A stretch of DNA of 64,000 nucleotides from Kineothrix sp. MB12-C1 (GTDB lineage: Bacteria; Bacillota; Clostridia; Lachnospirales; Lachnospiraceae), in contig NZ_CP132957.1 of NCBI RefSeq assembly GCF_030863805.1, positions 1,364,001-1,428,000 on the forward strand. The letters run 5' to 3'. Below are positions 9,857 to 46,050 of the stretch, one piece after another. A program made the position numbers and the translations under genes. The notes under the pieces were generated by a model. The model was not told where the DNA came from, did not search any database, and was given only the letters and a program-made list of their open reading frames with translations. The number at the start of each line of letters is the position of its first letter. Within the stretch, counting starts at the first letter, position 1.

Positions 9857-9860
9857 GGGA

Positions 9861-10193: not shown

Positions 10194-10220
10194 ATATCGG
10201 TTTTTTTTCGAATAACTTTA
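10194..10220 (-). promoter_or_regulatory. Putative sigma-28 (SigD/FliA) promoter of the flgM operon
   Basis: On the minus strand TAAA (10220-10217), a 15-base spacer and ACCGATAT (10201-10194) match the SigD consensus TAAA-N15-GCCGATAT at 11 of 12 positions. It lies about 58 bases before the flgM start. This is the best promoter match in the flagellar block. Confidence 0.8.
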
Positions 10221-10243
10221 TAGGAAAAGTTTTTATTTTTGTT

Positions 10244-10822: not shown

Positions 10823-10898
10823 CTTTTACACCTTTCCCTTTCCCCATCTTTCTATTCATACACGTAACCATTCAGTCCCCTCACAGTTACCCATACTT

Positions 10899-11780: not shown

Positions 11781-11813
11781 ATTTCTCCTCCTTCTATCTT
11801 ACCAGCTCTATTT

Positions 11814-13934: not shown

Positions 13935-14056
13935 GCTAATTTCTCCCAATTAGAAAACGACACCATTCTTCCTTATTATATGTTCAAATCCAGAGACGGT
14001 CACAATCCATCTCTTTGAAACCTCAGCACAAACCTAACGTCTGCAATGTAATCAAT

Positions 14057-14099
14057 GTAAATACGTAACTGTGAGGTAACCTGACTATTACGTAAATAC
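14057..14099. repeat. Imperfect palindrome between chemoreceptor and asnB
   Basis: GTAAATACGTAACTG and its partial inverse TATTACGTAAATAC flank a GGTAACC centre. About 17 of 22 positions pair. No gene is visible between asnB and the chemoreceptor terminator; function unknown. Confidence 0.4.
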
Positions 14100-14102
14100 A
14101 AT

Positions 14103-14135
14103 GCGGGGAAGAAATCTGTTGGATTCCTTCCCCGC
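14103..14135 (-). terminator. Intrinsic terminator of the chemoreceptor operon
   Basis: A 14-base-pair stem (GCGGGGAAGGAATC with GATTTCTTCCCCGC) with a five-base loop, 28 bases after the chemoreceptor stop on the minus strand and followed by ATTGTATTT. The long GC-rich stem makes it convincing even though the T-run is imperfect. Confidence 0.7.
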
Positions 14136-14162
14136 TTCTCACTCTTCTTATTCCATTTTTCT

Positions 14163-16088
14163 CTATTTCGTCTGGAACGTATTGATCAAACTGTCCAATT
14201 CCTCTGACATTTCGCTCAATTTAGCTATATTTCCCGTAATTTCATTCACTGTCATGGACTGCTCTTCCGCGGCCGAAGAAATATTCTCCATAGCAGATAC
14301 ATTTTCTTCCGCTGTCTCCGTCACACTTTTCAACATTCCTAGAATATGATCCTTCTTCTTGTTCGTCTCCTGATTATGTCCGACGATTCCGTGGATATCG
14401 GAAAGAAGATTCTTTAATTCTCCAGCCATTTCATTGAAAACATCTTCTGTAGAAGCCACTGACTTATTAATATTCGCCACACCGTCCCGGTTCTTGCCAA
14501 CGAAGTGCACTGCATCTTCTGATTGTCTCAGCATCTCCTCCACTTTCTCCCTGATGCCTTCCGTTGCTCTTGCAGTTTCGGTCGCCAAACTGCGGACCTC
14601 ACCGGCAACTACCGCAAAGCCTCTTCCTGCCTCTCCGGCTCTCGCTGCCTCAATATTGGCATTCAAGGCCAGTAGATTCGTCTGTTCTGCAACACCGGCG
14701 ATAATATCTACGATTTCCTTTATCTTCTCGGAATGTCCGTTAATTGCATTGATAATCTCTTCCATCTTCCTGGAATTATCGTCATTTTCATCGCTTGCCC
14801 TTTTCAGCTCCTTCACAGAATCAAGCCCTTGTTCTTTTAAGTTCATAGTCTTTTCTGCAGCCTGTGCTATCTTACTTCCGGCTTCAGCCGTCCGTTCGAT
14901 ATCTCCACCCAGCAAGCCAACTTCTTCCACACTCTTTACCGTATTCTGCGTCTGTTCCTCACCGAACTGCGCCATATGGGTAATGGAAGCCGTTACTTCT
15001 TCGGTCATACAAGAAACGTTATCCGCAGCCTCCTTCAACTCCCCTGAAAACTGGCTTAGTTGATTGCTGGAAGAAATCATCGACTTAATGATGAGATTCA
15101 GTTTATCCGTCAGGAGATTCACAGAATCCGCCAATACCTTCGTCTCATCCTTTGCCTTAATATTGATTTTTCCAACGGTCAAATCCCCTCTGGACACCTT
15201 TTCCAGAATCCCTGAAATCATATTAATCGGCCTTGTCAGCCTTCTCGTCATCAAAATACCTAATCCTAAAGATACTGCCAGAATAACAGCTAACGCTATC
15301 AGATTGTAGTTCAAAATAATCTGAGATCCCCGGAAAAGGTCATCATTGTAAATCACTGCCGCAACCGACCAATCCCAATGCGGAAAATATTGTGTATACA
15401 CCGTCTTCTTACCGGATATGCTGCTGACCTCTTCTCCTAATTCATAAGTTAAAATACCGCCGCCGCTCTTAGCAGTCTGTATCATTTCCTGAATGACCTG
15501 TCTACCATCTAATGTCTCTACGTCCAGAATATTACCATCTAAAAAAGGATGGAATATAACATCACCATCGGAATTAACAATGAAAAAGTATCCTCCTTCT
15601 CCCAGATTCAACATATGATCTTTTAAATGTGAGTTAGCCGTAGCCGCCGACACTGCGTCCACATTTTCTCCCGATGCCGAATCTTCTGTCGTTGCCCCGG
15701 ATACCGCATCCGCACCTTCTGCCGTTGCACCTGATTGTGCAGCCTCATTCTCCTGTGAAGATGCATTTTCTGTCGTTGCACTAGAAACTGCATCTGCGGA
15801 ATCTCCTTGCAACTCCCCGTGCAGCTGTCTTATAGCTCTCAAAGAAGCGGCCTGTGCCTCTTCCTGCGTCATCCATCCATTTCCCTCCAATGTACTTTGA
15901 TAATTCTTATTGATTTCAAACAGGCTGGATTCAATTACATTCTTTAAGATAATCTCATTGGAGCGAGTAATTTCCGCTTTCGCTATTATATAATTAACGG
16001 CAGACACGCTCGTCAATGCAATCAGAATAATAGCAATGATAAAAATACTGATCTTTTTATTTATGGTATCTAATTTAAAATATCTCAT
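14163..16088 (-). CDS. Methyl-accepting chemotaxis protein with Cache-type sensor carrying an insert of flavinylation-like repeats
   Basis: Transmembrane helix 1 (about residues 12-33), extracellular Cache-like sensor (about 35-255, with [19 protein letters not shown] and [11 protein letters not shown]), helix 2 (about 260-282), HAMP (about 283-335) and the cytoplasmic signalling hairpin with the conserved tip ([20 protein letters not shown]). The sensor has an insert at about residues 95-152 with three DAVSxAT units (DAVSSAT, DAVSGAT, DAVSAAT). These match the core of the ApbE flavin-transferase target motif Dxx(S/T)GAT, the middle one exactly. Start at ATG 16088 is preferred; a TTG at 16115 with AAAGGA upstream would add nine residues. 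It follows the GGDEF-EAL gene in one operon. Confidence 0.93.
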
Positions 16089-16118
16089 GGTCTTTTCTCT
16101 CTTCGTCTCTCTCAACTC

Positions 16119-18596
16119 TTATCCTTTAATAGGATTCTTTAAAAGCGCTACCTCTCCCCCTGTTATTGGCTTACTAAAATAATAGCCCTGTATACAATCA
16201 CATCCAAAAGCTGTCACTTTGTCGCTTTGATGTTTTTCTTCAATTCCCTCGACCGTCACTTTAAGACCAAGGCAATGCGCCATCCGTATGATATTTTCAA
16301 TGAACTCACCGCCTCTATCATCAAGGAAAATATCAACGAGCGATTTATCTAACTTTATCTTCTCCACCGGTATGTAGGTCAGATAATTGATGGACGAATA
16401 ACCGGTACCGAAATCATCCAGTGCCAATCCAACACCGATCGCCGAGAAATCCTCAAATAGCTGCATAGCATTTTCATTGTTATTGATAAAAATACTTTCT
16501 GTGATCTCAAGTTCAATTAAATGAGGAGAAATTTCATTTTTCTCCAAAAGACCCTTTAAATAATTGACATATCCTTTATCCCGTATTTGCTTACTCGAAA
16601 AGTTAATCGCCACCGGATATAACTCTAAGCCATTACTGCGCCATTCCACCATTTGCTCGATTACTTTCTTTGTTACTATACGTCCTATGTTTAAAATAAG
16701 CTCTGTCTCCTCCGCTATGGAGATAAACTCCATTGGAGAAATAAGGTGATTCTTCAGCCGTATCAAGGCCTCATAGCCATTAGTCCTACCTGTTCCCGCA
16801 TCGACCTGAGGCTGATACAGAATATAGAATCCATCATTGATACAAGCCTCGTTTAATATATTTTTTATGTCTTTTCTTTTTACTGCCTCATCCTTCATGT
16901 TGACATTATAATATACCCATTCATTTTTCCCGGATTTCTTAGCAGTACACAGCGCAAAATCCATATTGGAGACAATTTCACTGGCTTCCGTCTCATCCCC
17001 TTTAACTTCCGCAATTCCCATACTCATTTTTATATAATGTTTCTTATCCTCGAAAACAACAGGTAATTCAAGCACCTGCTTAATCCGATGCATGTACTGT
17101 TCGTTCTGCTCGTATTCAGCTCCATTCATAATGAGCAAAAATTCATCGCCGCCGAACCTGGAAACATAGAAGAGCTTATCATCTGTAATTTCCAACAATC
17201 TTCCGGCAATCTCACGCAGCACTTCATCACCGCAAATATGTCCGTAGGAATCATTGATTTCTTTGAAATCATCAATATCCATAATAATAACAGTACATTC
17301 TTTTTTTTCATGAATCAGAAGCTCTATTTTCTCCATTGCCGCGCGCCTATTAGGCAGATTAGTCAAATAATCGTGTTCTGCCTGATATAAAATATATTCA
17401 TTAGAACGCTGCAGATCCTTCATCAAGAGACGTCGTTTCAAACTATCAATAACAATAACTAAAGATACGCACAAGCAAAAGAGGGAAAATACAAATACAG
17501 GAATCAATACGACTTTGTACTTTTCAAATATAGTAGGTTCCTTATTAACAATGACCGTATCATCCGGTACAAGTGAAAGATCAATGTCATACTTTCTAAG
17601 AATATTATAATCGAAATAATACTGGCTTTCTCCTGTCAGATATACCGGCATATCTGCAATATCTACTCCCTTTAAAAGATCGAGCACCATAGCAGCCGCC
17701 ATATATCCTGACTTATCATATGATACCATCCTGCCGCCGATTAAACCATCTCCGACCCCCGAAACCGAAACCCGGTATACCGGGACTTTCGCACGTTCTG
17801 TAATATAGCGTACACTTTCAAATATCGTATAATAATTATTATCTATATCTTCGAATTGATCCATAAAAATAAGAATGGTATCATCTTCTATCCGGCCGAG
17901 TATTTGCCCGAATTCATCCAGCGTATATTCCGATGCATTAATTCCCACGAATTCATATTCAGGATAACTGGATTTTATATTATTAAACTGCTTCCAATCC
18001 CCCTTCCCAGTCAATGTATTATCATAAATTGCAGCGACCTTGGTTGCCTTAGGCTGAAACTTAATGGCAATGTCTATCGTGTCCTTCAAATAGAGCTCTT
18101 CTACTGCACCGGTAATGTAAGGATTCTCTCCTGCCGTTATCGCCAGTTCTTTATCATTAATACAGAAAAAAACCATAGAAATCCCTGCGAAAAGCTCCTC
18201 CTGATGAGCCATCGCGAACTTCAGCGCAGCATCATCCCCTAATAGGATGGCATCATACGCCTTACTATTTTTAATCTTATATTGAAGACTCTGATAGAAT
18301 AAATCTTCGTTTTCTTTCCTATCAAACCTCTTCATATCCATATATTCAATATCGAGTTGAATATTATTGCCTTTAAAGGCCTGACGAATCCCTTCCTTCT
18401 GTAAATCTACAGTATCGAAACTTTCGCTATAGGAGCTTATAAAAAGTACACGCTTTGCCGGAAAATAATCTTTCTCAACAAATACACTCCTTTCCCTGTA
18501 AAAAAACAGATAAAAAACCAATACCGATAAGATTAACACAAGTAAGCTAACCCCTATCGCTACTCTTCGTGCCGTTATCTTTTCTTCTTTTGTCAT
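16119..18596 (-). CDS. Membrane GGDEF-EAL protein with periplasmic-binding-like sensor
   Basis: Domain order: transmembrane helix (about 10-32), extracellular ABC-substrate-binding-like sensor (about 45-360, VLFISSYSESFDTVDLQKEG onward), second helix (about 362-388), GGDEF (about 405-560, with FGGDEFLL intact) and EAL (about 575-820). The EAL side keeps GYEALIRL, INFSSKQI, LEITES, DDFGTGYSS and KLDKSLV, so phosphodiesterase activity is expected; the cyclase motif is also intact. It should turn an extracellular ligand signal into changes of cyclic di-GMP. It is encoded just before the chemoreceptor (about 30 bases), suggesting joint control of swimming. Confidence 0.94.
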   Translation of the reverse strand: MTKEEKITARRVAIGVSLLVLILSVLVFYLFFYRERSVFVEKDYFPAKRVLFISSYSESFDTVDLQKEGIRQAFKGNNIQLDIEYMDMKRFDRKENEDLFYQSLQYKIKNSKAYDAILLGDDAALKFAMAHQEELFAGISMVFFCINDKELAITAGENPYITGAVEELYLKDTIDIAIKFQPKATKVAAIYDNTLTGKGDWKQFNNIKSSYPEYEFVGINASEYTLDEFGQILGRIEDDTILIFMDQFEDIDNNYYTIFESVRYITERAKVPVYRVSVSGVGDGLIGGRMVSYDKSGYMAAAMVLDLLKGVDIADMPVYLTGESQYYFDYNILRKYDIDLSLVPDDTVIVNKEPTIFEKYKVVLIPVFVFSLFCLCVSLVIVIDSLKRRLLMKDLQRSNEYILYQAEHDYLTNLPNRRAAMEKIELLIHEKKECTVIIMDIDDFKEINDSYGHICGDEVLREIAGRLLEITDDKLFYVSRFGGDEFLLIMNGAEYEQNEQYMHRIKQVLELPVVFEDKKHYIKMSMGIAEVKGDETEASEIVSNMDFALCTAKKSGKNEWVYYNVNMKDEAVKRKDIKNILNEACINDGFYILYQPQVDAGTGRTNGYEALIRLKNHLISPMEFISIAEETELILNIGRIVTKKVIEQMVEWRSNGLELYPVAINFSSKQIRDKGYVNYLKGLLEKNEISPHLIELEITESIFINNNENAMQLFEDFSAIGVGLALDDFGTGYSSINYLTYIPVEKIKLDKSLVDIFLDDRGGEFIENIIRMAHCLGLKVTVEGIEEKHQSDKVTAFGCDCIQGYYFSKPITGGEVALLKNPIKG

Positions 18597-34157: not shown

Positions 34158-34377
34158 TCCTAAAACTCCCAAAATCTCTATGTTCAAATACACTGTTTTT
34201 CCTCGCGAATATCTCTTGCTACACTCACATTGCGTGCCTATTATACGCCTATTGTAATTTTCACTCTAATATTGTGGATGGGGACGCCGTCCTCACATAA
34301 ACCAATGCATTATAGCTTTTCAAGGGGGATTAGCGCTGCGTGTACCCTTTCTCTAATAATCCTTGTATATCGCAAAA

Positions 34378-34411
34378 AAGACGTATGAAACTGTTACCTC
34401 TCATACGTCTT
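34378..34411 (-). terminator. Terminator of the nucleoside-type operon
   Basis: AAGACGTATGA and TCATACGTCTT form a perfect 11-bp stem, followed by TTTT on the minus strand, 14 bases past the stop of the TrpA-like gene. It marks the end of the long operon that begins with the GntR gene. Confidence 0.9.
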
Positions 34412-34424
34412 ATCTTTTATTCAC

Positions 34425-35138
34425 TTAGCACTGTGCCTTAAATTCCCGAATCGTCTCCTTCATTAACGGAATATTATCATGCAATTTTAAAATTGTACTT
34501 CCGACAAAAGCAGCATCGATTCCTGCTTCCTTCGCCATCTTCACGTCCTCCGGTGTATGTATTCCTACGCCGCAGTAAATCGGGCGTTCGATACCGCAAT
34601 CGCGCAGGTGCTTAACACAGTCTTTTAAGGTTCTATACCGAGGGTTGATTTCATCGCCCGGCTTAGCCTGTATATAAACAAATCCATTGGACTGTATCGC
34701 CGAATCAATTTCCTCCTGCATCATCTGATACTGTACATAGCATGAAACTTTTAATCCGCTGGCAATAATTTCATTTTTTATCACTTCATCTTTTAATCCA
34801 ACCAGTAAAATGTCCTCAATTTCGTTCTGTTTACAGAAACCAATGAATTTTTCAATTCCGATCTCCTCAACTGTATTTTCATAAGCCAGCAGTAAAAACT
34901 GAGTATCCGGCAGTCTCTTTTTTATGGCAATGATACTTTCCATATACTTTTCATAGTCATCGCAGACGCTCAAAGCATGCTTCATTCGGTCAGCAATGTA
35001 CTCACTTTCTAAATATGGATTGCGGGAAGGAAAATCAATTTCTATAATTTTGCAGCCTGCATCTGCATATTCAATTGCTGTCTGATAACTGCTCTCCAGG
35101 TTCGGATATCCATTGGATAAATATAAAATAATTTCCAT
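34425..35138 (-). CDS. Stand-alone TrpA-like (tryptophan synthase alpha) TIM-barrel protein
   Basis: A 237-residue TIM barrel related to tryptophan synthase alpha. LSNGYPNLESSYQTAIEYAD and the segment IIEIDFPSRNPYLES align with the TrpA loop ALELGVPFSDPLADG: catalytic Glu49 is kept, and the position of Asp60 is occupied by Glu. The GVGIHTPEDVKMAKEAGIDA and FVGSTILK phosphate-binding end is kept, but the GVTG part has become KPGDE. There is no trpB or other trp gene nearby; it is the last gene of an operon for a nucleoside-like substrate. I infer a retro-aldol or isomerase role on a phosphosugar, not indole synthesis. Confidence 0.7.
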   Translation of the reverse strand: MEIILYLSNGYPNLESSYQTAIEYADAGCKIIEIDFPSRNPYLESEYIADRMKHALSVCDDYEKYMESIIAIKKRLPDTQFLLLAYENTVEEIGIEKFIGFCKQNEIEDILLVGLKDEVIKNEIIASGLKVSCYVQYQMMQEEIDSAIQSNGFVYIQAKPGDEINPRYRTLKDCVKHLRDCGIERPIYCGVGIHTPEDVKMAKEAGIDAAFVGSTILKLHDNIPLMKETIREFKAQC

Positions 35139-35140
35139 GC

Positions 35141-36289
35141 CTATTCTCCCTTATATGCCTTTATGAAAAGTTCCTTAAACTGCTGTAAACTTGGTTTTAT
35201 AGGATTTGTTTTCGTGCATCCATCCGCACTGGCTGCCATCGCCATATCATCGAGACGGTTCATATATGCCGCTTCATCGGAAATGACTTCACAAAAACCA
35301 GTCGGAATATTAAGCTTTTTATTTAGCTCACGTACCATATCTGCCAAATTAGTTCCGCCTGCCTTCTCAGCGAGCTGACGGTAAATTTCTGCTGCCCTTT
35401 CATCCTGACTGTTAAAATCAATCACATAAGGCAAAAGCATCGCATCGCCCAATCCATGCGCAATATGAAAACATCCGCCCAAAGTATGCGCCATTGAATG
35501 TACAATTCCAAGAGATACATTGGTAAAAGCCATTCCGGCTGCCATAGAGGCATTCAGCATATGTTCTCTTGCCTCGCCGTCATTGCCATTCTCATATGCT
35601 TTTGGCAGATAGGTAAAGATATCGAGAGCCGCTTGCGTTGCCAGAATATCACCGATATAATTCGCTCTTGTGGAAGCCAATGCCTCAACCGCATGAGTCA
35701 GCGCATCCATTCCTGTCTCGGCGGTAATTTTATCCGGCATCGACATTGTCACCTGTGGATCGCAGATCGCAATATCCGGCATCATTTCCATGTTCCCTAG
35801 ACCATGCTTCATACCCGTTTCCTTATCGGAAATTACAACCGAACGCGATACCTCGCTAGCCGTTCCGGCTGTAGATGGAATACAACAAAAAATCGCTTTT
35901 TTCCGTAGCTTTGGGAATGGATTGGCTTCCAGCAACTCCTCCAGGGTTGTCAGCTCCGGATGCTCATAATACACCCACATCGCCTTTGCTGCATCCATTA
36001 CAGAGCCTCCGCCCAAGGCGACAATCAGATCAGGTCCAAATTCTTTCATTTGTTCGGCTCCCCGCACTACAGTCGAAAAAGCCGGATCAGGTTCTACTCC
36101 GTCAATGACCATCGTCTCAGCGCCTGCCTCCTGTAGATAAGCTCTTACCGTATCGAGCATTCCGCTCTTTATCATACTGGATCCACCAATTACAATGGAC
36201 GTCCTTTTGGTATTCAGGCTCTTTAAGTGCTCCAGACATCCTTCTCCAAATAACAACTGGCTTCCTGCCAGCTTCATCGGTCTCATCAT
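35141..36289 (-). CDS. Iron-containing (group III) alcohol dehydrogenase
   Basis: A 382-residue Fe-ADH with the NAD-binding GGGSVMDAAKAMW motif (about 94-106), CIPSTAGTASEVSRSVVI, the metal-site segment GMDALTHAVEALAS (Asp and His ligands) and HSMAHTLGGCFHIAHGLGDA with two further His ligands. Enzymes of this family interconvert small alcohols and aldehydes. Placed among a phosphorylase, a sugar kinase and two TIM-barrel proteins, it may reduce an aldehyde released from the sugar part. It overlaps closely with the TrpA-like gene (3-base gap). Confidence 0.9.
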   Translation of the reverse strand: MMRPMKLAGSQLLFGEGCLEHLKSLNTKRTSIVIGGSSMIKSGMLDTVRAYLQEAGAETMVIDGVEPDPAFSTVVRGAEQMKEFGPDLIVALGGGSVMDAAKAMWVYYEHPELTTLEELLEANPFPKLRKKAIFCCIPSTAGTASEVSRSVVISDKETGMKHGLGNMEMMPDIAICDPQVTMSMPDKITAETGMDALTHAVEALASTRANYIGDILATQAALDIFTYLPKAYENGNDGEAREHMLNASMAAGMAFTNVSLGIVHSMAHTLGGCFHIAHGLGDAMLLPYVIDFNSQDERAAEIYRQLAEKAGGTNLADMVRELNKKLNIPTGFCEVISDEAAYMNRLDDMAMAASADGCTKTNPIKPSLQQFKELFIKAYKGE

Positions 36290-36329
36290 AGCTTTCTTCC
36301 TCTTCTCTCTATTTCAGTTTGTTCATCTC

Positions 36330-37121
36330 TTACATTAATCCTTCTATTACTTCCCTTACCAGTTCGTAGGAGATTGGGTTGCTAATCTTTCCATTCTTTT
36401 TCAGACTGGAACCGATTATCGCACCGTCTGCTATCTCCATTTGATCTTTTATATTATGTGCATTCACGCCACTGCCCGCCAAAATAGGTATCTTTACCAC
36501 ATTTTTGGCTTTCTTAATTGCCGCAATCGGTGTCTCAGCTCCAATTACACTACCGGTCACAATAATTGCATCAGCACCATTATCAGCGGCCTCTTTTGCC
36601 GACTGTTCAACCGTTATTCCCGAAATCAGCATATGGGCATGTTTTACCTGTATATCGGCCAAAATTTTTACATGCTCCAACCCCATATTCTTACGGAAAA
36701 TCATACATTCTCTGGCTGCCGGATAAATAACACCGTCGGTGAATACTACCGTATCCACAAATACCGGAATCCTTACAAAGTCAGCACCCGTGATACCGGC
36801 AATCGAAAGGGAAGCTTTACAGTCATTAAACGCGGCATCAATCCCTATCGGAATTTTTACAGCCTGCCGCACCGCCATAGCTGCCACCGATAGGGCTGCA
36901 ACCTGTGGGGTATCCATAATGGCCGAAAACGGCGTATCTCCCATGTTTTCCACAATTAATGCATCCACACCTGCCCTCTCTAATGTCACAGCATCCTCTA
37001 CTGCGCGTTCTATAATCCGTTGATAATTTCCGTCGAAACCTGCCGTCCCCGGAAGCGCAGGGCAATGTACCATACCAATAATCGTGGTTTCTTTTCCCGT
37101 TAAAATTTCCTTCTTGCTCAT
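36330..37121 (-). CDS. BtpA/SgcQ family TIM-barrel protein
   Basis: A 263-residue protein matching the BtpA family: IGMVHCPALPGTAGFDGNYQ, AGVDALIVENMGDTPF, PIGIDAAFNDCKASLSIA and ILAGSGVNAHNIKDQMEIAD. BtpA was named for a role in cyanobacterial photosystem I, and E. coli SgcQ sits in a sugar operon, but no enzymatic activity is firmly assigned to the group. The C-terminal VTGSVIGAETP and IIGSSLKKNG segments look like a phosphate-binding barrel end. In this operon it is likely to act on a phosphorylated pentose intermediate. Confidence 0.85.
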   Translation of the reverse strand: MSKKEILTGKETTIIGMVHCPALPGTAGFDGNYQRIIERAVEDAVTLERAGVDALIVENMGDTPFSAIMDTPQVAALSVAAMAVRQAVKIPIGIDAAFNDCKASLSIAGITGADFVRIPVFVDTVVFTDGVIYPAARECMIFRKNMGLEHVKILADIQVKHAHMLISGITVEQSAKEAADNGADAIIVTGSVIGAETPIAAIKKAKNVVKIPILAGSGVNAHNIKDQMEIADGAIIGSSLKKNGKISNPISYELVREVIEGLM

Positions 37122-37148
37122 CGTTTCACCCTTCCTTTCAACCAGTTA

Positions 37149-37904
37149 CTATGCTTCTACCGCCTGATGATACTGATAGATTCCTTCAAGAGCGACGCGG
37201 CACAGCAAATCTTCAGCCGCCACTCTTTCTTCTCCAAGGAGAACCTCCTTTAAATTTTCCAATACCGTCGTAATCGTTACGACACAGGCTTTTATTCCCA
37301 TTAACCGTCCAAGCGTCAGCATACAGGAGGACTCCATATCAATTCCAACTACATGCAGTTTTTTTAATTCCTCAAAAGTCTGGCTCATATCTCTGCCCCA
37401 TTCCTTTGAAAATTTGGAATCGTGCATATGACTGTAAAAACCGTCCATCGTACAATTCAATCCGTTACGATACTCTGCTCCCATCTCGGTTACGGTCCGA
37501 TTCATCGACTGCACCAACTCAAAATCAGCCACCGCCGGATAACTTTCCTCCACGTAAGTGCCGCTGGTACCTTCCCGTCTCATTGCCGCTACCGGAATAA
37601 TAAATTTTCCGAGTAAGTCATCCTCCAGTGCCATCACAGTTCCCATACGAACCGCTACTTCCATACCGGCCTCATACATCTCCTCCATTGCAATTGCTGC
37701 AGAAGGAGCACCGATTCCGGTACTGGTGACAGTGATTTCCACACCCTTATAAGTTCCTGTATAGGTATTGAACTCTCGCCGAAAGGCTATCTGCCTTGGG
37801 TTGTCGAGATATTTTTTTACATTTTCCACCCTCCATGGATCGCCGGAAAACACTACATATTTTGAAATGTCCTTCGCTTCTACTCCGGAATATAAAGTAC
37901 TCAT
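37149..37904 (-). CDS. Nucleoside phosphorylase, uridine-phosphorylase-like (NP-I family)
   Basis: A 251-residue NP-I family phosphorylase. The phosphate-binding GDPWRVENVKKYL (about 21-33), TVTSTGIGAPSAAIAMEEM (about 58-76), RREGTSGTYVEESYPAV and GIDMESSCML (ribose-site Glu) are all present, the pattern of uridine phosphorylase relatives. It would split a nucleoside with phosphate into base and pentose 1-phosphate. The gene overlaps the end of the PfkB kinase gene by four bases (ATGA), so the two are made together. Confidence 0.9.
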   Translation of the reverse strand: MSTLYSGVEAKDISKYVVFSGDPWRVENVKKYLDNPRQIAFRREFNTYTGTYKGVEITVTSTGIGAPSAAIAMEEMYEAGMEVAVRMGTVMALEDDLLGKFIIPVAAMRREGTSGTYVEESYPAVADFELVQSMNRTVTEMGAEYRNGLNCTMDGFYSHMHDSKFSKEWGRDMSQTFEELKKLHVVGIDMESSCMLTLGRLMGIKACVVTITTVLENLKEVLLGEERVAAEDLLCRVALEGIYQYHQAVEA

Positions 37905-38854
37905 TTTTTATCCTCCTTTACCTGATGGTATTTTTTCAAAAACTCCTCTTCTGTCGGCAGATTCGTACAGCAGCCTTCCTTTTGCAATACGAACCAAGAG
38001 AGCACACTTCCCATACGGCAGCACTCTGCGCAATTCATTCCGTTCAGATAGCCATACAGAAACCCAGCCATATAAGAATCGCCGGATCCGGTCGCATCCA
38101 CTACCTTTTCCACCGGACACACACCGATTTTCTCTGTTTTAGCTCCCTCTGAAGTCCGTTCATAGTAAATACTGCCTTCACTCCCAAGGGTTGTAACTAT
38201 CACACGTGCACGTCCGATTTTAAACAACTCTGTAATATCTTTAAACCCGTATAGTTTTTCTATAATTTCCCGTTCAACTTCGTTGGTAAAAATAATATCA
38301 CTTTCGGTTAAAATTTCTCTCAAAAACGGTTCGGGAAAGGCATCAAAATCATCCTTCATCCCAAATACTATCGGTACATGATGTTTTTTACACTGTTCAA
38401 AGAATATGCGGTTATCTTCTCTGGAAGCTACAGTCATCACTCCAAGCCGCACACTTTGAAACAAATTATCTTCCACCGGCTCTGCTAACGAACCATCCAT
38501 CGAACCAGGATAAAAGATTGTAATATGATTATTGTTATTATCTTGAATCAAGTAACAAAGAGAGGTAGTCTCCTCCGGCAGAACTTTAATCCCATCAAGA
38601 GGTACCCTGCCATTTTCCAGAAATCCTTTAAATCCATTATTCTCCCAATCGCCTCCTACACGCAAAAGCGGTAAGGCCGACTTTCCCAGCCTGCAGAGCG
38701 CATAGGCAATATTTACAGAACAACCGCCATACTGAATTCTAGCATTGTCCCTATTGGTCACCAGCGAAGTAAATCCTACTTTTGCCGGTGTAGCAATTTT
38801 GATAATATGGTCCATGCTCACATATCCGCTGGTAATTACATCATATTGTTTCAT
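37901..38854 (-). CDS. PfkB-family nucleoside or pentose-phosphate kinase
   Basis: A 317-residue ribokinase-like kinase with the GGCSVNIAYALCRLG motif (about 43-57), TTSLCYLIQDNNNNHITIFY, TNEVEREIIEKLYG and the DATGSGDSYMAGFLYG C-terminal signature with catalytic Asp (about 255-270). It is nearer the adenosine/nucleoside kinase side of the family than to fructokinases, judging from these motifs. Next to a nucleoside phosphorylase, either a nucleoside or ribose 1-phosphate is a reasonable substrate; the second would make ribose 1,5-bisphosphate. Confidence 0.88.
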   Translation of the reverse strand: MKQYDVITSGYVSMDHIIKIATPAKVGFTSLVTNRDNARIQYGGCSVNIAYALCRLGKSALPLLRVGGDWENNGFKGFLENGRVPLDGIKVLPEETTSLCYLIQDNNNNHITIFYPGSMDGSLAEPVEDNLFQSVRLGVMTVASREDNRIFFEQCKKHHVPIVFGMKDDFDAFPEPFLREILTESDIIFTNEVEREIIEKLYGFKDITELFKIGRARVIVTTLGSEGSIYYERTSEGAKTEKIGVCPVEKVVDATGSGDSYMAGFLYGYLNGMNCAECCRMGSVLSWFVLQKEGCCTNLPTEEEFLKKYHQVKEDKK

Positions 38855-38886
38855 GTCCGCTCCCTTTCGTAATAGTTACCTTTCTT

Positions 38887-39462
38887 CTATAATTCTCCTT
38901 CGCTCAGCCTGCGAAACAACTCGTGACTATCGATGACAGTACCTAAATACTTGTTAATATCCTCAAGATGAACCTGATTCACCACTTCGGAATTAGTTGC
39001 CACACAATCACCGATTACATATCCGTCATAGTCCAGATAGAAGGCATCGGTAATCGTTGCCCGGATACAGCAATTGGTCTTAGTCCCTACCACCAACACA
39101 TTTTTGATTCCGTTTTCCCGCAGCACCAGATCCAGATCCGTACCGAAGAATCCGCTGTAGCGTCGTTTCTTGATAATATAATCCTTTTCCTCATCCACCA
39201 AAAGCATCGGATCTATTTCCTCTCCACCGCTTCCTTCAATACAATTAGGGCGCATACTTGCCGCTTTGCGGTCGAATTTCCCCTTTCGGTTACAGTGCTG
39301 TAAGAATACAATTAAAACCCCATTTTCCCGGCAGGTTTCAAGGACCGTTCTTATCCGCGGCAGAATTTTTCTATTTTGGGGGTAGAAAACAAGCCCCTCC
39401 GGATCAGTAAAGTCCTTTACCATATCTACAATTAATAAAGCCGTCTTCGTCGTCTTTGCCAT
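38887..39462 (-). CDS. Isochorismatase-family cysteine hydrolase
   Basis: A 191-residue protein of the cysteine hydrolase fold: Asp in LLIVDMVKDFTDPEGL, Lys near KKRRYSGFFGTDLD, and catalytic Cys in VVGTKTNCCIRATITDAFYL. The YSGF and TDL segments resemble ureidoacrylate amidohydrolase (RutB) and N-carbamoylsarcosine amidase. The His-rich metal site of nicotinamidases is not visible. In this operon it may open or deaminate a product of the released base. ATG is preceded by GGAGG. Confidence 0.85.
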   Translation of the reverse strand: MAKTTKTALLIVDMVKDFTDPEGLVFYPQNRKILPRIRTVLETCRENGVLIVFLQHCNRKGKFDRKAASMRPNCIEGSGGEEIDPMLLVDEEKDYIIKKRRYSGFFGTDLDLVLRENGIKNVLVVGTKTNCCIRATITDAFYLDYDGYVIGDCVATNSEVVNQVHLEDINKYLGTVIDSHELFRRLSEGEL

Positions 39463-39477
39463 CTGTCCCTACCTCCA

Positions 39478-40395
39478 TCACATCGCGGATCCAAGTCCCC
39501 GCTCTTTTATATTTTTATATTTTACGCCGGAAACTATTGCCAGTACGGCTACCATAATAATATATGGAATAATATCGAACAAACCGGAAGCCGGTCCCGC
39601 ATAAATACTTAAATTTACCGCCAATGCCCTGGCCACTCCGAATAAAATCGCATACATCGAAGACAACACCGGACGTCCCTGACCGCAATAGATTGCAGCA
39701 ATGGCAATGAATCCACGCCCGGCCGTCATGTCGTTGGTATATAAGCCCAGACGTTCCACCGAAAGATTCACCCCTGCCAAAGCACAGCAGAAAGCACCGA
39801 TTAGTACTGCCGCATACTTATAATAATTTACCTTGATTCCCAGGCTGGAGGCAGAGTCCTCATTTTCTCCTGCCACTCGCACATAGATACCGAATCTAGT
39901 CTTATACATCAGCACATAAGAGCAGGCGATTCCAATAAATGCCAAGTAAGTAATCGGCGGATGTCCGCTTATGATACTTCCAAGAAGCGGAACTTTTCCA
40001 ATCAGAGGTATATGAATCTTATAGTTTGCAATATTAACATTCTGCAGCGTTATGTTTGCCGTACCCATTATCTGCATGACAAACCCGGCAATTGCAGAAG
40101 TTATCAGATTGATTGCAAGACCTACCACAATTACATTTCCACGATAGCTGATTCCGAGTATCGAAAAGATAAAACCGTACACAAGCGTCGATAAAACAGC
40201 TAGAAAAATGGATAATGGCAAGCTTCCGCTAAAGAACATCACAAGGGTTGCCACAAAAGCACCATTAAGCATCATTCCTTCCAGCGCAATATTTAAAACA
40301 TTTGCCTTATAAGCAAACATTCCGCCGATAACACAGAGAATGATCGGTGTGCTGTGATAGATCGTGTCATACAAAATATTACTCAACAAACCCAT
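39478..40395 (-). CDS. Nucleoside-type ABC transporter permease (NupQ/YufQ-like)
   Basis: A 305-residue BPD_transp_2 permease with about eight to nine membrane helices; GMFAYKANVLNIALEGMMLNG is the family's N-terminal signature and AGRGFIAIAAIYCGQGRPVL the conserved cytoplasmic loop. It is the second permease of a BMP-type importer. Its start overlaps the stop of the preceding permease (TAATG). Confidence 0.93.
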   Translation of the reverse strand: MGLLSNILYDTIYHSTPIILCVIGGMFAYKANVLNIALEGMMLNGAFVATLVMFFSGSLPLSIFLAVLSTLVYGFIFSILGISYRGNVIVVGLAINLITSAIAGFVMQIMGTANITLQNVNIANYKIHIPLIGKVPLLGSIISGHPPITYLAFIGIACSYVLMYKTRFGIYVRVAGENEDSASSLGIKVNYYKYAAVLIGAFCCALAGVNLSVERLGLYTNDMTAGRGFIAIAAIYCGQGRPVLSSMYAILFGVARALAVNLSIYAGPASGLFDIIPYIIMVAVLAIVSGVKYKNIKERGLGSAM

Positions 40396-41468
40396 TATGC
40401 TGCCTCCTTTTTATCTTTTCCTACTTTTTTGAACCGTGCAAATATATCGCGGTTATCGGATATGAATTTTACGGCCAGGAATAATATAATCAGCCCCTGA
40501 ATCAAGGCCACAATTTCCTTCGGAACATTCGTATACATATTGATATTATCGCTTCCTGTTTTAAGAGCTGAATAAAAAACAGCAGCAATCAGAATACCAA
40601 TCGGTGAATGTCCTCCTAAAAGGGCAATCAGCATTCCATCCCAGCCAAGGCCGGGAGTACCGGAGAAACTCAGCGTATATTTAAACTGTTCGCTCATCAT
40701 AAATCCTGCTCCTGCCAGCCCTGCCAGCGCTCCGCTTAACAGCATCAGTACAATAGTCTTTTTACCAGTGTTCATTCCTACCGCTTCTGAAAATTCCGGG
40801 TTCATTCCGAGTGCAGTCAGTTCATATCCAAGCTTCGATTTTTTCATCACAATATACATAATTATCAGCACTACAATCGCTATAAAAAAGAACATCGTCA
40901 GCCGCGACCTGCCAAATCTGGAAAACATCGCACCTTCCGCAATAGTAGGGGTTGCCACGTAGCCGGAGCTCAAATCGCGGAATACACCGGTGGATAAAAA
41001 CTCCAACAGCTTTGCCATTGCATAATTCAACATCAGAGTTACTACCATTTCATTGACACCGCATTTTGCCTTTAAGATTGCCGGAATCAAAGCAAACAGC
41101 ATTCCGCAAAGGATGCCCACTGCAAAACAGATAAGTTTGTGCAGGAGGGGATTCATATTGTGTATGTAAGCACCGCAGATTCCTGCAAAAAATCCTCCAA
41201 GCAAAAGCTGTCCTTCCACACCCATATTGTATAAATTTGCCTTAAAGGTTACCGCAATCGCCAGACCGGTAATAATCAGCGGCGAGGCATAATGTAAGGT
41301 GTTCATAAAGCCTGTGGAAGTTAGAAAAGATTTCTCCAACAAAATCCAATAAGTAGATAGAGGATTTTCACCTATCCCTGCAATTACAATGCCGCCAATG
41401 ATAAAAGCCAGCAAAATCGGCAATATCGAGTTTAGTATACTTTTTATCAGTTGCTTTTCTTTACTCAT
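40395..41468 (-). CDS. Nucleoside-type ABC transporter permease (NupP/YufP-like)
   Basis: A 357-residue BPD_transp_2 permease with around nine to ten membrane helices; TFKANLYNMGVEGQLLLGGF and GLGWDGMLIALLGGHSPIG are typical of the YufP group that partners BMP-type binding proteins. Its start overlaps the ATPase gene by eight bases. Confidence 0.93.
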   Translation of the reverse strand: MSKEKQLIKSILNSILPILLAFIIGGIVIAGIGENPLSTYWILLEKSFLTSTGFMNTLHYASPLIITGLAIAVTFKANLYNMGVEGQLLLGGFFAGICGAYIHNMNPLLHKLICFAVGILCGMLFALIPAILKAKCGVNEMVVTLMLNYAMAKLLEFLSTGVFRDLSSGYVATPTIAEGAMFSRFGRSRLTMFFFIAIVVLIIMYIVMKKSKLGYELTALGMNPEFSEAVGMNTGKKTIVLMLLSGALAGLAGAGFMMSEQFKYTLSFSGTPGLGWDGMLIALLGGHSPIGILIAAVFYSALKTGSDNINMYTNVPKEIVALIQGLIILFLAVKFISDNRDIFARFKKVGKDKKEAA

Positions 41469-43002
41469 GCGCGGCCTCCTTTGCTTTCGAATTTATTCCT
41501 GCCATAAACAATCCAAGCGCTACCGAATCTATCTCATTGCGGTACATTTTACCGGAAATTTTCCCTTTATACATAACCAGAACCTGATCCGAAAGACTGA
41601 GTATTTCGGAAAGCTCACTGGATACCAGTATGACTGCATTTCCTTCATCCCTGAATTTCAATATCTGTTTGTGAATAAACTCGATGGAACCAATATCCAC
41701 ACCGCGAGTAGGCTGACAAGCAATTAAAAGCTTTGGATCTGCCGAAAGCTCCCTGGCAACAATAATTTTTTGCGCATTTCCACCCGAAAGGCAGGAAACT
41801 TTACCGTCTAAGTCACCAACTCGTATATCAAATTCTTTTATGAATCCATCTCTTCTTTGGCAAATGGCTTTTTGATTCAGGATTCCCCTCTGGCAGACCT
41901 CTTTATCTCCGTGATAACCGGCAATACAGTTTTCCGCAACGCTCATATCCTTACACAGTCCTTGTGCATAACGGTCCTCAGGAATAATTCCCATCCCTTC
42001 CTCTCGCAACCTTGCCGGCCATTGGTTTGTAATATCCTGTCCTAAAAAAGTGGCCTTCCCGCTGGTGGATTCCATCAACCCTGTAATTACCTTTATCAAC
42101 TCTGACTGCCCGTTTCCTTCTACTCCGGCAATTCCGAGAATTTCTCCTTTTCGCACACAGAAGGATACATCGGAAACAACTTCTTTGCCGTAAGCATTGG
42201 TCGTACAAAGCTTCTCTGCTTCGTATACCACTTCCTCTTGAATCGGCTTCTTTCTGCTGCTGTCCACCGTCAGAACAACGTTTCTCCCTACCATCATCTG
42301 GGCTAATTCCTCTTCGTTCGTCTCCCTGGTCAAAACGCTGCCTACTACCTTTCCGCGTTTAATTACGGTAACACTGTCACTGACCTCCATAACTTCACGC
42401 AGCTTATGAGTGATAATGATGATCGTCTTCCCTTGTTTCTTCATATTCTTCAGATTGACCATAAGTTCATCGACTTCCTTCGGTGTCAGCACAGCCGTTG
42501 GCTCATCCAGAATCAAAATATCGACATTGCGGTAAAGCATCTTTAAAATTTCTACTCGTTGTCTGCCGCCTACGGAAATATCTTCAATCTTATCCAATGG
42601 ATTCAACTCAAAATGATATTCCTCAATCAAGCGCTGAACCCGTTCAATCTCTGCTTTTTTGTCCACAAACGGAGTCCTGCCCTTGCAAATTTCAACACCC
42701 AGAAGAATATTTTCATATACTGTCAGGCTGGGCACCAGCTTAAAATGCTGGTGCACCATGCCTATCCCATTTGCGATAGCATCAATAGGGCTGTTTAACC
42801 TGACTTCCTTACCGCGAATCAGGATTTTCCCGCTGGTAGGCTGTAGAAGGCCATAGAGCATATTCATCAGAGTAGATTTTCCCGCACCATTTTCTCCTAC
42901 GATGCACTTTATCTCTTCCGCTTCCACACTCAGGTTAATCGCATCATTGGCTGTGAAATCTCCAAATTTTTTTGTTAAGTTCACTACTTCTATCATGCTC
43001 AT
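41461..43002 (-). CDS. Nucleoside-type ABC transporter ATP-binding protein (NupO/YufO-like)
   Basis: A 513-residue tandem ATPase. First nucleotide-binding domain: Walker A GENGAGKSTLMNML, signature ISVGGRQRVEIL, Walker B ILILDEPTAVLTP. The second domain (about 255-500) has a less canonical Walker A (GVEGNGQSELIKVI), LSGGNAQKIIVAREL and LLIACQPTRGVDIG, as in other monosaccharide/nucleoside importers. It powers uptake through the two permeases that follow. Two starts (43002 or 42996) are possible. Confidence 0.94.
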   Translation of the reverse strand: MSMIEVVNLTKKFGDFTANDAINLSVEAEEIKCIVGENGAGKSTLMNMLYGLLQPTSGKILIRGKEVRLNSPIDAIANGIGMVHQHFKLVPSLTVYENILLGVEICKGRTPFVDKKAEIERVQRLIEEYHFELNPLDKIEDISVGGRQRVEILKMLYRNVDILILDEPTAVLTPKEVDELMVNLKNMKKQGKTIIIITHKLREVMEVSDSVTVIKRGKVVGSVLTRETNEEELAQMMVGRNVVLTVDSSRKKPIQEEVVYEAEKLCTTNAYGKEVVSDVSFCVRKGEILGIAGVEGNGQSELIKVITGLMESTSGKATFLGQDITNQWPARLREEGMGIIPEDRYAQGLCKDMSVAENCIAGYHGDKEVCQRGILNQKAICQRRDGFIKEFDIRVGDLDGKVSCLSGGNAQKIIVARELSADPKLLIACQPTRGVDIGSIEFIHKQILKFRDEGNAVILVSSELSEILSLSDQVLVMYKGKISGKMYRNEIDSVALGLFMAGINSKAKEAAHE

Positions 43003-43031
43003 ACGTAGAATCTCCCATTTTATTGTTTATA

Positions 43032-44228
43032 TCATTTAATGGTTATATTTGTACATGATGCTGTATCAAGTTCTTCTCCAACCTGAGCATTGGTAACCTT
43101 GATGCTTCCGTCACCAATCTTTGCTTTTAAATCATCAAGATACTTAATAATCTCATCCCACTTTGCTTTCGCTTCATCAGTATCTGCCAATACCTTCTGA
43201 ATCTCTGTCAAATCCGTAATCGAGGTTGCACCGGAAGCCAATGAAAAGGTCTGTAAATTTTCTGTCTCACTTATTGTTCCTTCCACAACCGCTTTCGTAA
43301 TGTCATATACCGGCACTTCGGTATTTTTGATTACACTGGTTAAAATATATCCCGGCTGTAAGGCATCCTTATCTGCATCTACATGGATTGCCAGCTTACT
43401 TTCTTCTTTTGCCTTAGCCGCAACACCGTCGCCCACACTTCCCGCTACCGCATATACCAAATTAGCGCCTTGATTATAGAAGGTACCCGCTACTGTGCTT
43501 CCGGTTGCCGGATCAGAAAAACCTGCATCATATTTTGCATAGTAGTCATAGTTAACACCTAGATCGGCAGCAGCCTGATTGATTCCTTCAATAAATCCAT
43601 AAGAAAATACAGTAATACCGTTAGAATTTGTTCCGCCTACAAATCCAATAGTGCGTCCTCCCTGATCGATCGGAGTAAATTTGTACTGATTGGCAGCAAA
43701 CAAAACATCTGCATTTTCCAATGCTTGAACAGATAGAGCACCTGCAATATAGGATGCTTCATGAACATCGAAGAGTACAGAAATTACGTTTTTGTGCAGT
43801 ACATTTCCACTCGCATCAATATTCGGATTGTCATTAAAGATTACAAATGTAGTATCCGGATACATCTCCGCAATCGGCTTGGAACCTCCTACTACTTTTA
43901 TCAATGCATCGAAGTCGTACTCCAAACTGAAAATAACATTATAACCGTCCCCTGACAGAGTTTCCAAAGCCGCCGGAACTCCATTGGTAGGTTCCACGAC
44001 CTTATATTCCACGCCAAGCTCGTCCGCAACTTTCTTCGCCCCTGCTACTGCAGATTGGTTATATCCATTGTCGTTTTGCCCTGCGGAATCACAAACAATA
44101 GCAATTTTAACATCGGACTTCGCACCGTTTTCTTTATTTTCTTCACTTTTTGCACCGCAACCGGTGAATAATCCTACTGCCATGGTTACCGTTAAAACAA
44201 CCCCTAAAAACTTTTTCATTTTATTCAT
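43032..44228 (-). CDS. BMP-family (PnrA-like) nucleoside-binding lipoprotein
   Basis: A 398-residue lipoprotein: signal MKKFLGVVLTVTMAVGLFTG, then the lipidated Cys of FTGC. The mature part has KIAIVCDSAGQNDNGYNQSA, DRGGRTIGFVGGTNSNGITV-like (DQGGRTIGFVGG) and YAVAGSVGDGVAAKAK, the BMP/PnrA fold whose characterised members bind purine or pyrimidine nucleosides. It is the first structural gene after the regulator. Excellent GGAGG before ATG. Confidence 0.93.
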   Translation of the reverse strand: MNKMKKFLGVVLTVTMAVGLFTGCGAKSEENKENGAKSDVKIAIVCDSAGQNDNGYNQSAVAGAKKVADELGVEYKVVEPTNGVPAALETLSGDGYNVIFSLEYDFDALIKVVGGSKPIAEMYPDTTFVIFNDNPNIDASGNVLHKNVISVLFDVHEASYIAGALSVQALENADVLFAANQYKFTPIDQGGRTIGFVGGTNSNGITVFSYGFIEGINQAAADLGVNYDYYAKYDAGFSDPATGSTVAGTFYNQGANLVYAVAGSVGDGVAAKAKEESKLAIHVDADKDALQPGYILTSVIKNTEVPVYDITKAVVEGTISETENLQTFSLASGATSITDLTEIQKVLADTDEAKAKWDEIIKYLDDLKAKIGDGSIKVTNAQVGEELDTASCTNITIK

Positions 44229-44290
44229 CCTTTAACCTCCTACATTATAAGCCCCAATTTTTATCTTCTTCTCCCGGGACTGTCTGCACT

Positions 44291-45040
44291 TCACTTCCTG
44301 CTACTGCTATCACCTATCTGCTCCATATAAAACTTGTACTGGTCGGTTCTGTAATAGCACTGGAAATACTCAATCGGTATCTCCTTTCCATTCACGACTC
44401 CATAGGTCACACAACCGAACAAAATAACCGGTAACTGCTCGTCAATATCCAGATATTCAGCGATCTCCTCATCCGTTAGAACAGCTTCCAGTGTCCTTCT
44501 GGATTTTGCAAATTTCACATGATACTGATTCTGGATCAATTGATATAATGGCTGTTCGTTAAAATCATACTGTTCAATCCCCGGAAATATCTTCTGCGGA
44601 AGATAAGTAATCGTATAATTCAACGGTTCCCCATCCGCCATCGTAATCCTCCCTAGCCGAAGCAGCTTATCATTGGCAGCCACATTTAAAATCCTTGCTC
44701 TCTTTGCATCTGCTGCAATTACCTCACTGACCGTTACTTTTTTTGAAGGCGTCTTTCCCAACCGAATTACATCCTCGGTACAGCTCGTAATAGCAAACAA
44801 GTTCTGGCTGTATACCTCATCATTCTTGACATATGTACCCTTACCCTGAATTCGATAAAGGTAACCCCCTGCCACCAACTCATCAATCGCTTTTCGCACC
44901 GTAATCCGGCTAACCTGATACTGCTCCATCAATTCTCGTTCGCTGGGAATCAATGTACTGGGGCCATACTCTTCCTCTTCTATCTTCTGTATCAGTTCTT
45001 TTTTTAATACAAAATATTTGGGAATTCTGCTTTCCTCCAT
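44291..45040 (-). CDS. GntR-family regulator with UTRA domain (operon proximal)
   Basis: A 249-residue GntR/HutC-type regulator: winged helix (about 8-75, PSERELMEQYQVSRITVRKA, then GYLYRIQGKGTYV) and a ligand-binding UTRA domain (about 95-240). It is the first gene of the operon and is followed directly by the binding-protein gene. Its promoter is followed by repeated GTCAT motifs that may be its operator. It resembles the neighbouring GntR gene strongly across its whole length, so one arose by duplication of the other. Confidence 0.92.
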   Translation of the reverse strand: MEESRIPKYFVLKKELIQKIEEEEYGPSTLIPSERELMEQYQVSRITVRKAIDELVAGGYLYRIQGKGTYVKNDEVYSQNLFAITSCTEDVIRLGKTPSKKVTVSEVIAADAKRARILNVAANDKLLRLGRITMADGEPLNYTITYLPQKIFPGIEQYDFNEQPLYQLIQNQYHVKFAKSRRTLEAVLTDEEIAEYLDIDEQLPVILFGCVTYGVVNGKEIPIEYFQCYYRTDQYKFYMEQIGDSSSRK

Positions 45041-45068
45041 TCTTCTCCCCTTTCTTTTTTATTGTTAT

Positions 45069-45096
45069 GTCATCATGTTGTCATGTCGTCATGACC
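45069..45096 (-). promoter_or_regulatory. Candidate GntR operator downstream of the operon promoter
   Basis: Three GTCAT units (45069, 45080, 45088) ending in the palindrome GTCATGAC, beginning about 12 bases past the -10. Location over the transcript start suits a repressor; the protein that binds is inferred. Confidence 0.55.
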
Positions 45097-45108
45097 AGTT
45101 GTATTTTT

Positions 45109-45136
45109 ATTATAACGCTATTTTCTATTTTGTCAA
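45109..45136 (-). promoter_or_regulatory. Sigma-A promoter of the nucleoside-type operon
   Basis: TTGACA, 16-base spacer, TATAAT on the minus strand, about 70 bases ahead of the GntR gene. A strong match and the only one found for the eleven genes downstream. Confidence 0.85.
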
Positions 45137-45306: not shown

Positions 45307-45329
45307 GGTTGCCATTTACTTGGCAACCT
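45307..45329 (-). terminator. Terminator whose loop contains the stop codon of the second GntR gene
   Basis: AGGTTGCCA and TGGCAACCT form a 9-bp stem followed by TTTTTT; the TAA stop (in AAGTAA) is in the loop. It separates this gene from the operon below. Confidence 0.9.
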
Positions 45330-46050
45330 GATCAATGTAAAATTTGTATTTGTCGGTTCGATAATAGCACTTAAAATTCTCGATTGGCAACTCATGTCCA
45401 TTTATAAGCCCGAAGGTAACACAGCTAAAAAGAATGACCGGCATCCGCGATTCAATTTCTAAGTACTCAGCAATTTCGTCCTTTACCAGAACCGCTTCTA
45501 TGGTTCTTCGTGCCTTTGTAATCACTACGTCATATTCACCAGTCAAAACCTGATATAAAGACTCCTTTGCAAAATCATGTTTTTCTAATTTGGGGAAAAG
45601 TTTAAGCGGAAGATAGGTTAACGTGTAATTTAGAGGCTCCTTGTCGGCATATAAAACCCTGCCTAAACGAAAGACCTTATCTTCGTCTGCAAGATTCAAC
45701 GCTTTGGCTCTTTTTCTGTCAGTTTTAACAATTTCGGAGATTATTACCTGTTTGCTCGGCTCCATCCCCATATCGCGCACAGCCTGTGTGCAACTGACAA
45801 GTGAAAAGAGATCGTTTCCTCTCTCATCTCCCTTTACATAAGTTCCCTTTCCCTGTATCCGGTATAGATAGCCTTCAATTACCAATTCATCAATCGCTTT
45901 GCGGACTGTTATCCGGCTTACATGATATTGCTCCATAAGCTCGCGTTCACTTGGAATCAGATTCTGGGTCGTATATTCTTCGGCTTCAATTTTGCGAATG
46001 ATTTCCTGCTTTAACAGATAATATTTTGGTACCAGCCTTTCTTCATACAT
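45316..46050 (-). CDS. GntR-family regulator with UTRA domain (second, paralogous)
   Basis: A 244-residue GntR/HutC regulator almost collinear with the neighbour: both have PSERELMEQYxVSRITVRKA, RIQGKGTYVK, LNYTLTYLPxKxFP and CYYRTDxYKFY. It has its own promoter and a terminator overlapping its stop codon, so it is a separate unit. It may sense the same or a related ligand and bind a similar operator. Confidence 0.9.
   Translation of the reverse strand: MYEERLVPKYYLLKQEIIRKIEAEEYTTQNLIPSERELMEQYHVSRITVRKAIDELVIEGYLYRIQGKGTYVKGDERGNDLFSLVSCTQAVRDMGMEPSKQVIISEIVKTDRKRAKALNLADEDKVFRLGRVLYADKEPLNYTLTYLPLKLFPKLEKHDFAKESLYQVLTGEYDVVITKARRTIEAVLVKDEIAEYLEIESRMPVILFSCVTFGLINGHELPIENFKCYYRTDKYKFYIDQVAK

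Follow-up and report, generated by a model that had tools for sequence, protein, structure and literature searches.

A conserved eleven-gene operon of Kineothrix sp. MB12-C1 that may serve nucleoside catabolism

The stretch of DNA analysed here, hereafter the window, comprises 64,000 nucleotides of contig NZ_CP132957.1 of Kineothrix sp. MB12-C1, a member of the Lachnospiraceae. The catabolic operon that it contains is real and conserved and has an operator of its own. The operon is composed of 11 open reading frames (ORFs), all on the minus strand between 34425 and 45040, and neighbouring ORFs in the list for the window overlap or are separated by short gaps (Table 1). The 11 genes are one unit with its own regulator, since the gene order is kept in other genomes, orthologues co-occur, and the operator is conserved and unique in the genome. 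From the sequences, we assign a probability of roughly 0.45 to the reading that the operon is self-contained and serves the catabolism of a nucleoside-like riboside, which would be broken down in the seven steps described below. Literature searches found no published description of such an operon.

Layout, conservation and control of the operon

The initial annotation had placed an operon of 11 genes between one strong promoter and a perfect terminator, and the ORF list, the promoter scan and the fold calculation all agree with it. In a scan of 13.5 kb, the promoter is the sole 12/12 match to the consensus TTGACA-16-TATAAT, while the total number of promoter-like matches is close to chance (35 found versus a mean of 34.3 in shuffles). 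The terminator folds with −17.6 kcal/mol (z −5.5), and 0 of 200 shuffles are equally good. The automatic hairpin scan allows loops of 3–8, and the terminator with its 12-nt loop is hence outside its list. Within the operon, the NP-I and PfkB genes overlap by 4 nt.

Each of the 10 structural proteins exceeds the Pfam cut-off of its own family, in agreement with the families named by the initial annotation. The family of the regulator GntR1 was assigned by sequence reading and by 61% identity to the neighbouring GntR2. Among the NCBIfam models shown (for the ABC ATPase, the best 25 of 191 models), only that of the broad BtpA/SgcQ subfamily has its cut-off reached by an operon protein. Therefore, the operon proteins are treated as members of broad families, not as assigned enzymes.

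Searching genome contigs with the TrpA-like protein as query yielded 11 loci, from Muricomes, two Faecalicatena, Coprococcus comes, a Hespellia metagenome-assembled genome (MAG), three other Lachnospiraceae assemblies, Oribacterium parvum, Candidatus Egerieimonas, and a Spirochaetia MAG. The order of the 10 structural genes is the same in all 11 loci and in five of six additional genome stretches, the exception being L018. Three of these five stretches are loci already counted, which leaves 13 distinct assemblies besides the window. We also traced three of the genes in a sample of 150 genomes of the family, of which 126 have a completeness of 90% or more and a contamination of 5% or less. Orthologues of the TrpA-like protein, BtpA, and NP-I (66–79% identity) are present in the same five genomes and in the window's own, and the next matches are at most 34, 35, and 38% identical, respectively. 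The three genes were thus found together in 6/6 carriers and in none of the sampled genomes apart, so the co-conservation on which the initial annotation had made its proposal depend is borne out.

The candidate operator, AACTGGTCATGACGACATGACAACATGATGACATAAC, sits just downstream of the −10 box. Its 20-mer occurs without mismatch in the window, with 0.04 expected. The 16-mer GTYATGACRACATRAC has one exact occurrence in the 3.94-Mb genome, at this operon. With up to two mismatches it is found at 11 places, three of them at the operon, and a reversed control pattern at 12; only the perfect 16-mer site is meaningful, because the mismatch-tolerant count is no better than the control. Of the loci with at least 100 bases upstream of the operon, 9/9 carry the 12-mer AACTGGTYATGA there, seven stretches that end in or near the regulator having been left out. 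The 12-mer is exact in L020–L027 (on the opposite strand in L022–L024) and has one mismatch in L017, where it lies about 540 bases upstream of the BMP gene. Elsewhere in the 16 loci, it is found at four places with one mismatch and at no further place exactly. The regulator gene precedes the operon in most loci; in L017 and L021 it lies downstream. GntR1 is presumably the protein that binds the operator; it would repress transcription from this position downstream of the −10 box and would be released by the substrate or an intermediate. GntR2, a second GntR-like regulator (window 45316–46050, minus strand), is followed by a terminator hairpin of its own, has no operator copy upstream, and reads as a paralogue of GntR1.

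Table 1 Features of the operon, with positions in the window
Feature	Position	Strand	Remarks
Sigma-70-type promoter TTGACA-16-TATAAT	45109..45136	-	12/12 consensus
Operator, candidate	45064..45100	-	AACTGGTCATGACGACATGACAACATGATGACATAAC; similar 8-bp units repeated (by eye)
GntR/UTRA-type regulator GntR1	44291..45040	-	ORF; family from sequence reading and identity to GntR2
BMP/PnrA-type substrate-binding lipoprotein	43032..44228	-	PF02608, 112 bits
ABC transporter ATPase, double domain	41461..43002	-	PF00005, two stretches
ABC permease 1	40395..41468	-	PF02653
ABC permease 2	39478..40395	-	PF02653
Isochorismatase-fold cysteine hydrolase; proposed amide/ureide hydrolase of released base	38887..39462	-	PF00857
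PfkB-family kinase	37901..38854	-	PF00294, 136 bits
NP-I nucleoside-phosphorylase-family enzyme	37149..37904	-	PF01048
BtpA/SgcQ-family barrel; candidate isomerase, epimerase or aldolase of kinase product	36330..37121	-	PF03437, TIGR00259
Iron-type alcohol dehydrogenase (Fe-ADH), proposed aldehyde reductase	35141..36289	-	PF00465/PF25137
TrpA-like (beta/alpha)8 barrel, proposed retro-aldol lyase	34425..35138	-	
Intrinsic terminator	34374..34411	-	perfect 11-bp stem AAGACGTATGA/TCATACGTCTT, 12-nt loop, T run; read directly

Enzyme families and the proposed route

In the proposed route, the BMP/ABC system would import the riboside, NP-I would cleave it by phosphorolysis to the base and a pentose 1-phosphate, and PfkB would phosphorylate C5 to give a pentose 1,5-bisphosphate. 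The BtpA barrel would rearrange the kinase product, and the TrpA-like barrel, a descendant of TrpA, would split it by retro-aldol cleavage into a triose phosphate and a two-carbon aldehyde. Fe-ADH would reduce the aldehyde to an alcohol and thereby also dispose of electrons, and the isochorismatase-fold hydrolase would open or deamidate the released base. We infer each reaction, the order of phosphorolysis and phosphorylation, and which of the two barrels isomerises and which cleaves. Import, phosphorolysis, C5 phosphorylation, splitting of a pentose phosphate, and aldehyde reduction would fit the families and some recurring neighbourhoods. A more specific proposal, which we hold tentatively and with some doubt, is that a TrpA descendant has turned into a sugar-phosphate lyase, that BtpA provides the preceding isomerase, epimerase, or aldolase step, and that the two belong to a bacterial pentose (bis)phosphate route by which gut-type anaerobes would degrade a modified or unusual nucleoside, the C2 fragment ending as an alcohol.

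The importer is complete. Its PF02608 binding protein, double ATPase, and two PF02653 permeases are the four components of a putative BMP/PnrA nucleoside ABC importer, and solved relatives of the binding protein include Lbp, BmpA, BmpD, and TmpC. The importer and NP-I families are the basis for naming a nucleoside as the substrate. Import and cleavage of a riboside are likely. NP-I scores 117.8 bits against PF01048. Its best NCBIfam match is uridine phosphorylase (TIGR01718), with which it shares the fold family and the phosphate/ribose site; residues Gly21, Arg25, Arg43, Arg86, Thr89, and Glu191 are invariant in 12 rows. It differs from uridine phosphorylase in scoring under the cut-off (175.8 versus 280.3 bits) and, in the alignment, in having a variable residue and His161 in place of Gln166 and Arg168, which we take, in number and role, to be the uracil-binding residues. 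Because these two are not kept, uracil is unlikely as the base, and the substrate is probably a riboside other than an ordinary uracil nucleoside.

Residues Asp13, Lys99, and Cys132 of the hydrolase, whose roles we take to be those of the triad of isochorismatase-fold hydrolases, are invariant in 11/11 rows, and its best NCBIfam match is RutB (83.6 bits, under the cut-off). Ureide and amide hydrolases recur in some BtpA clusters, which hints, as a lead only, at an amide or ureide group in the released base.

Among solved structures, PfkB is closest to those of the MJ0406 sugar kinase, a putative ribokinase (3b1n/3b1r), a fructokinase, and adenosine kinases. It scores 55.4 and 55.8 bits against the ribose 1-phosphate (R1P) kinase models NF053626 (cut-off 330) and NF041134 (cut-off 500). 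Fe-ADH stays under the cut-offs of its best NCBIfam matches, which are the alcohol dehydrogenase half of AdhE (354 bits), ErcA (267 bits), and lactaldehyde reductase (256 bits); against the glycolaldehyde reductase model NF053832 it scores 26.5 bits (cut-off 550).

The TrpA-like protein has the fold of TrpA, its catalytic Glu49 and Asp60 positions (the latter as Glu), and most of its phosphate cup. In 11/11 TrpA-like rows there are equivalents of Glu49, Asp60 (as Glu), Tyr102, Tyr175, Gly211, Gly213, and Gly234, and in 10/11 also of Ser235; Glu at the Asp60 position is likewise found in the TrpA of the own genome and in three presumed TrpA of the family sample. The protein differs from TrpA in forming a separate clade, in scoring under the TIGR00262 cut-off (75.9 versus 102.35 bits), and in its polar pocket, where Phe22 is changed to Tyr, Ile153 to His, Gln, or Lys, Leu177 to Gln, and Phe212 to Val. 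Because the catalytic acids and most of the phosphate cup are kept and the pocket is polar, the sequence suggests that the protein performs retro-aldol cleavage to a triose phosphate. Pfam finds no TrpB among the 10 structural proteins of the operon, and a second, much better-scoring TrpA (298 bits) is encoded elsewhere in the genome. In L018 (6256–12902), a distant TrpA-like protein (34% identity) is clustered with Fe-ADH, two ADP-ribosylglycohydrolases, and EIIB, EIIC, and EIID of a phosphotransferase system (PTS), a cluster that may degrade a riboside and share the end steps.

The operon's BtpA exceeds both cut-offs of its family (TIGR00259, 226.6 versus 153.4 bits; PF03437, 236 versus 30). 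The family includes E. coli SgcQ and the photosystem I biogenesis protein BtpA, and we know of no enzymatic function for it. The operon protein belongs to it by sequence and, as in several phyla, has a sugar kinase near by; window-type members are 50–75% identical to the window protein, and the other members seen are at most about 41% identical. In fold comparison, BtpA resembles HisF and related barrels, and since several barrels tie, no reaction is favoured. BtpA adjoins PfkB or lies one gene away in some Firmicutes stretches, and likewise in 5/5 alphaproteobacterial and 2/3 haloarchaeal plasmid regions read. In support of the seven-step route, a single cluster in a genome of the same family, L155, unites BtpA and an eIF2B-type protein with two genes each for NP-I and PfkB.

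The L155 cluster (3434–14954) also contains DeoC, ECF-type transporter parts, and an SIS protein; it has the look of a further nucleoside route not yet described and is well suited to a search for the step of BtpA. An analogous arrangement, PfkB-SIS-BtpA-DeoC-SDR, is present in L076, in one run (6079–17819) with a CbiQ-type transporter part, a CoA-ligase-domain protein, M42 peptidase-like and dihydropyrimidinase-like genes, and two unclassified proteins between. PTS genes, BtpA, and amidohydrolases are grouped in L173 (4450–11593) and L156 (7561–12376), and L173 additionally has an eIF2B-type protein and, scoring over the cut-off, a dihydropyrimidinase. An alphaproteobacterial plasmid cluster (L064, L066, L067, L069) combines a carbohydrate-type ABC importer, phosphotriesterase, glutamine amidotransferase, PfkB, and BtpA with a Zn-dependent hydrolase or TenA. 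One genome of the family, G149, has six BtpA homologues.

Weighing of the readings

Several observations weigh against the seven-step route. The positions of TrpA Thr183 and Gly184 vary, with Thr in 2/11 and Gly in 3/11 TrpA-like rows, and the L018 homologue lacks the equivalents of Asp60 and Tyr102. PfkB has IolC (95 bits) and ribokinase (81) as its best NCBIfam matches, over R1P kinase (55–56), all under cut-off, and PfkB-like proteins were recognised, in a crude search, in only 11/39 BtpA stretches outside the operon. As there is no phosphatase in the operon, the C2 product of a cleaved bisphosphate would keep a phosphate. The genome encodes DeoB (phosphopentomutase, 480 bits) and DeoC (deoxyribose-phosphate aldolase, 244 bits) by profile, and another NP-I (34% identical), so common nucleosides do not require the operon. 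Finally, an eIF2B-type isomerase-family protein stands beside BtpA in L155 and L173, which makes BtpA a poor fit as the sole isomerase. The biochemical route of the initial annotation is partly supported, in that it fits the families and some recurring neighbourhoods, and the part played by BtpA is less certain than the annotation had it.

The first two enzymes could act in the reverse order, PfkB as a nucleoside kinase yielding the nucleoside 5'-phosphate, from which NP-I would then release the pentose 1,5-bisphosphate by phosphorolysis, with the rest of the route unchanged. In Thermococcales, nucleoside monophosphate phosphorylase makes pentose 1,5-bisphosphate from nucleoside 5'-phosphate, by other enzyme families. 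This order agrees with the adenosine kinases among the nearest solved relatives of PfkB, with its top match MJ0406, which we take to be a nucleoside kinase, and with a nucleoside-kinase NCBIfam score (63) slightly above those for R1P kinase, all far under cut-off. However, IolC and ribokinase outscore any nucleoside-kinase model, and NP-I keeps the phosphate/ribose residues of an ordinary nucleoside phosphorylase; we consider the reverse order unlikely.

A different substrate would be an N-glycosyl ureide or a reduced or ring-opened pyrimidine riboside, such as dihydrouridine or hydantoin riboside, from which the hydrolase would remove a carbamoyl group and BtpA would rearrange the phosphoribosyl-amine, a class of compounds that TrpF and HisA rearrange. 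BtpA clusters elsewhere offer dihydropyrimidinase-family enzymes (L074 and L173, over the TIGR02033 cut-off; L076, under it), an annotated Zn-dependent hydrolase or TenA (4/5 alphaproteobacterial regions read), M20 proteins (L073), and GlmS-like SIS proteins (L074, L076, L085, L155), and the RutB match of the hydrolase and the HisF-like fold of BtpA point the same way. However, the window operon contains none of these extra genes and has NP-I instead, and the tie in the fold comparison favours no reaction; such a substrate seems rather improbable. Very unlikely, in our view, is that nucleosides are taken up and phosphorolysed in the ordinary way, that R1P leaves via DeoB, and that BtpA, Fe-ADH, and the TrpA-like protein serve an unrelated reaction on the shared transcript: the DeoB and DeoC matches elsewhere in the genome would allow it, but the set of 10 structural genes is unbroken in 13 other assemblies, among them Oribacterium and the Spirochaetia MAG, and a search of the 150 genomes showed no case in which the TrpA-like, BtpA, and NP-I orthologues are separated. 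With DeoB and DeoC present, a plain R1P route would be redundant, unless the making of an alcohol serves redox balance, and plain ribose or deoxyribose is the less likely target.

Relation to a known pathway and significance

The initial annotation had likened the operon to the haloarchaeal non-carboxylating pentose bisphosphate pathway. The likeness stands for the phosphorylase, PfkB, and alcohol dehydrogenase families. As described in 2022 (PMC9700705), that pathway has a uridine-phosphorylase-family phosphorylase beside a PfkB kinase, an alcohol dehydrogenase/reductase for the released aldehyde, and the same logic as proposed here, in which the sugar is split to a triose phosphate and a C2 alcohol. 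The likeness does not extend to the ribose 1,5-bisphosphate (R15P) isomerase, ribulose bisphosphate phosphatase, and FucA-type aldolase described there, which the operon lacks. Among its 10 structural proteins there is no eIF2B-type R15P isomerase (PF01008) and, in a search confined to the operon, no phosphatase or class II aldolase domain; the eIF2B-type homologue of L155 has no match in the own genome at E 1e-12, no R15P isomerase model having been run genome-wide. The operon differs further in its BtpA and TrpA-like barrels, BMP importer, base hydrolase, and GntR regulator, and in an organism that has DeoB. We file it as a new form of nucleoside catabolism, not as a member of the haloarchaeal pathway.

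According to PMC9700705, R1P kinase and R15P are perhaps more widespread in Archaea and Bacteria than expected, and the operon is a concrete bacterial candidate for such an occurrence. It also provides a complete, testable setting, with importer, regulator, operator, and enzymes, for BtpA and for a branch of TrpA outside tryptophan synthase. BtpA occurs in bacteria and archaea with no assigned reaction, and the route, if true, would give it a biochemical role. If the reading of the TrpA-like protein as a lyase and of BtpA as its partner is true, the alphaproteobacterial and haloarchaeal BtpA-PfkB pairs would be variants of the same chemistry, and BtpA could supply the step that is lacking where haloarchaea encode homologues of the phosphorylase and of R1P kinase but no R15P isomerase. 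For the Lachnospiraceae, the route would explain how some members use a class of nucleosides.

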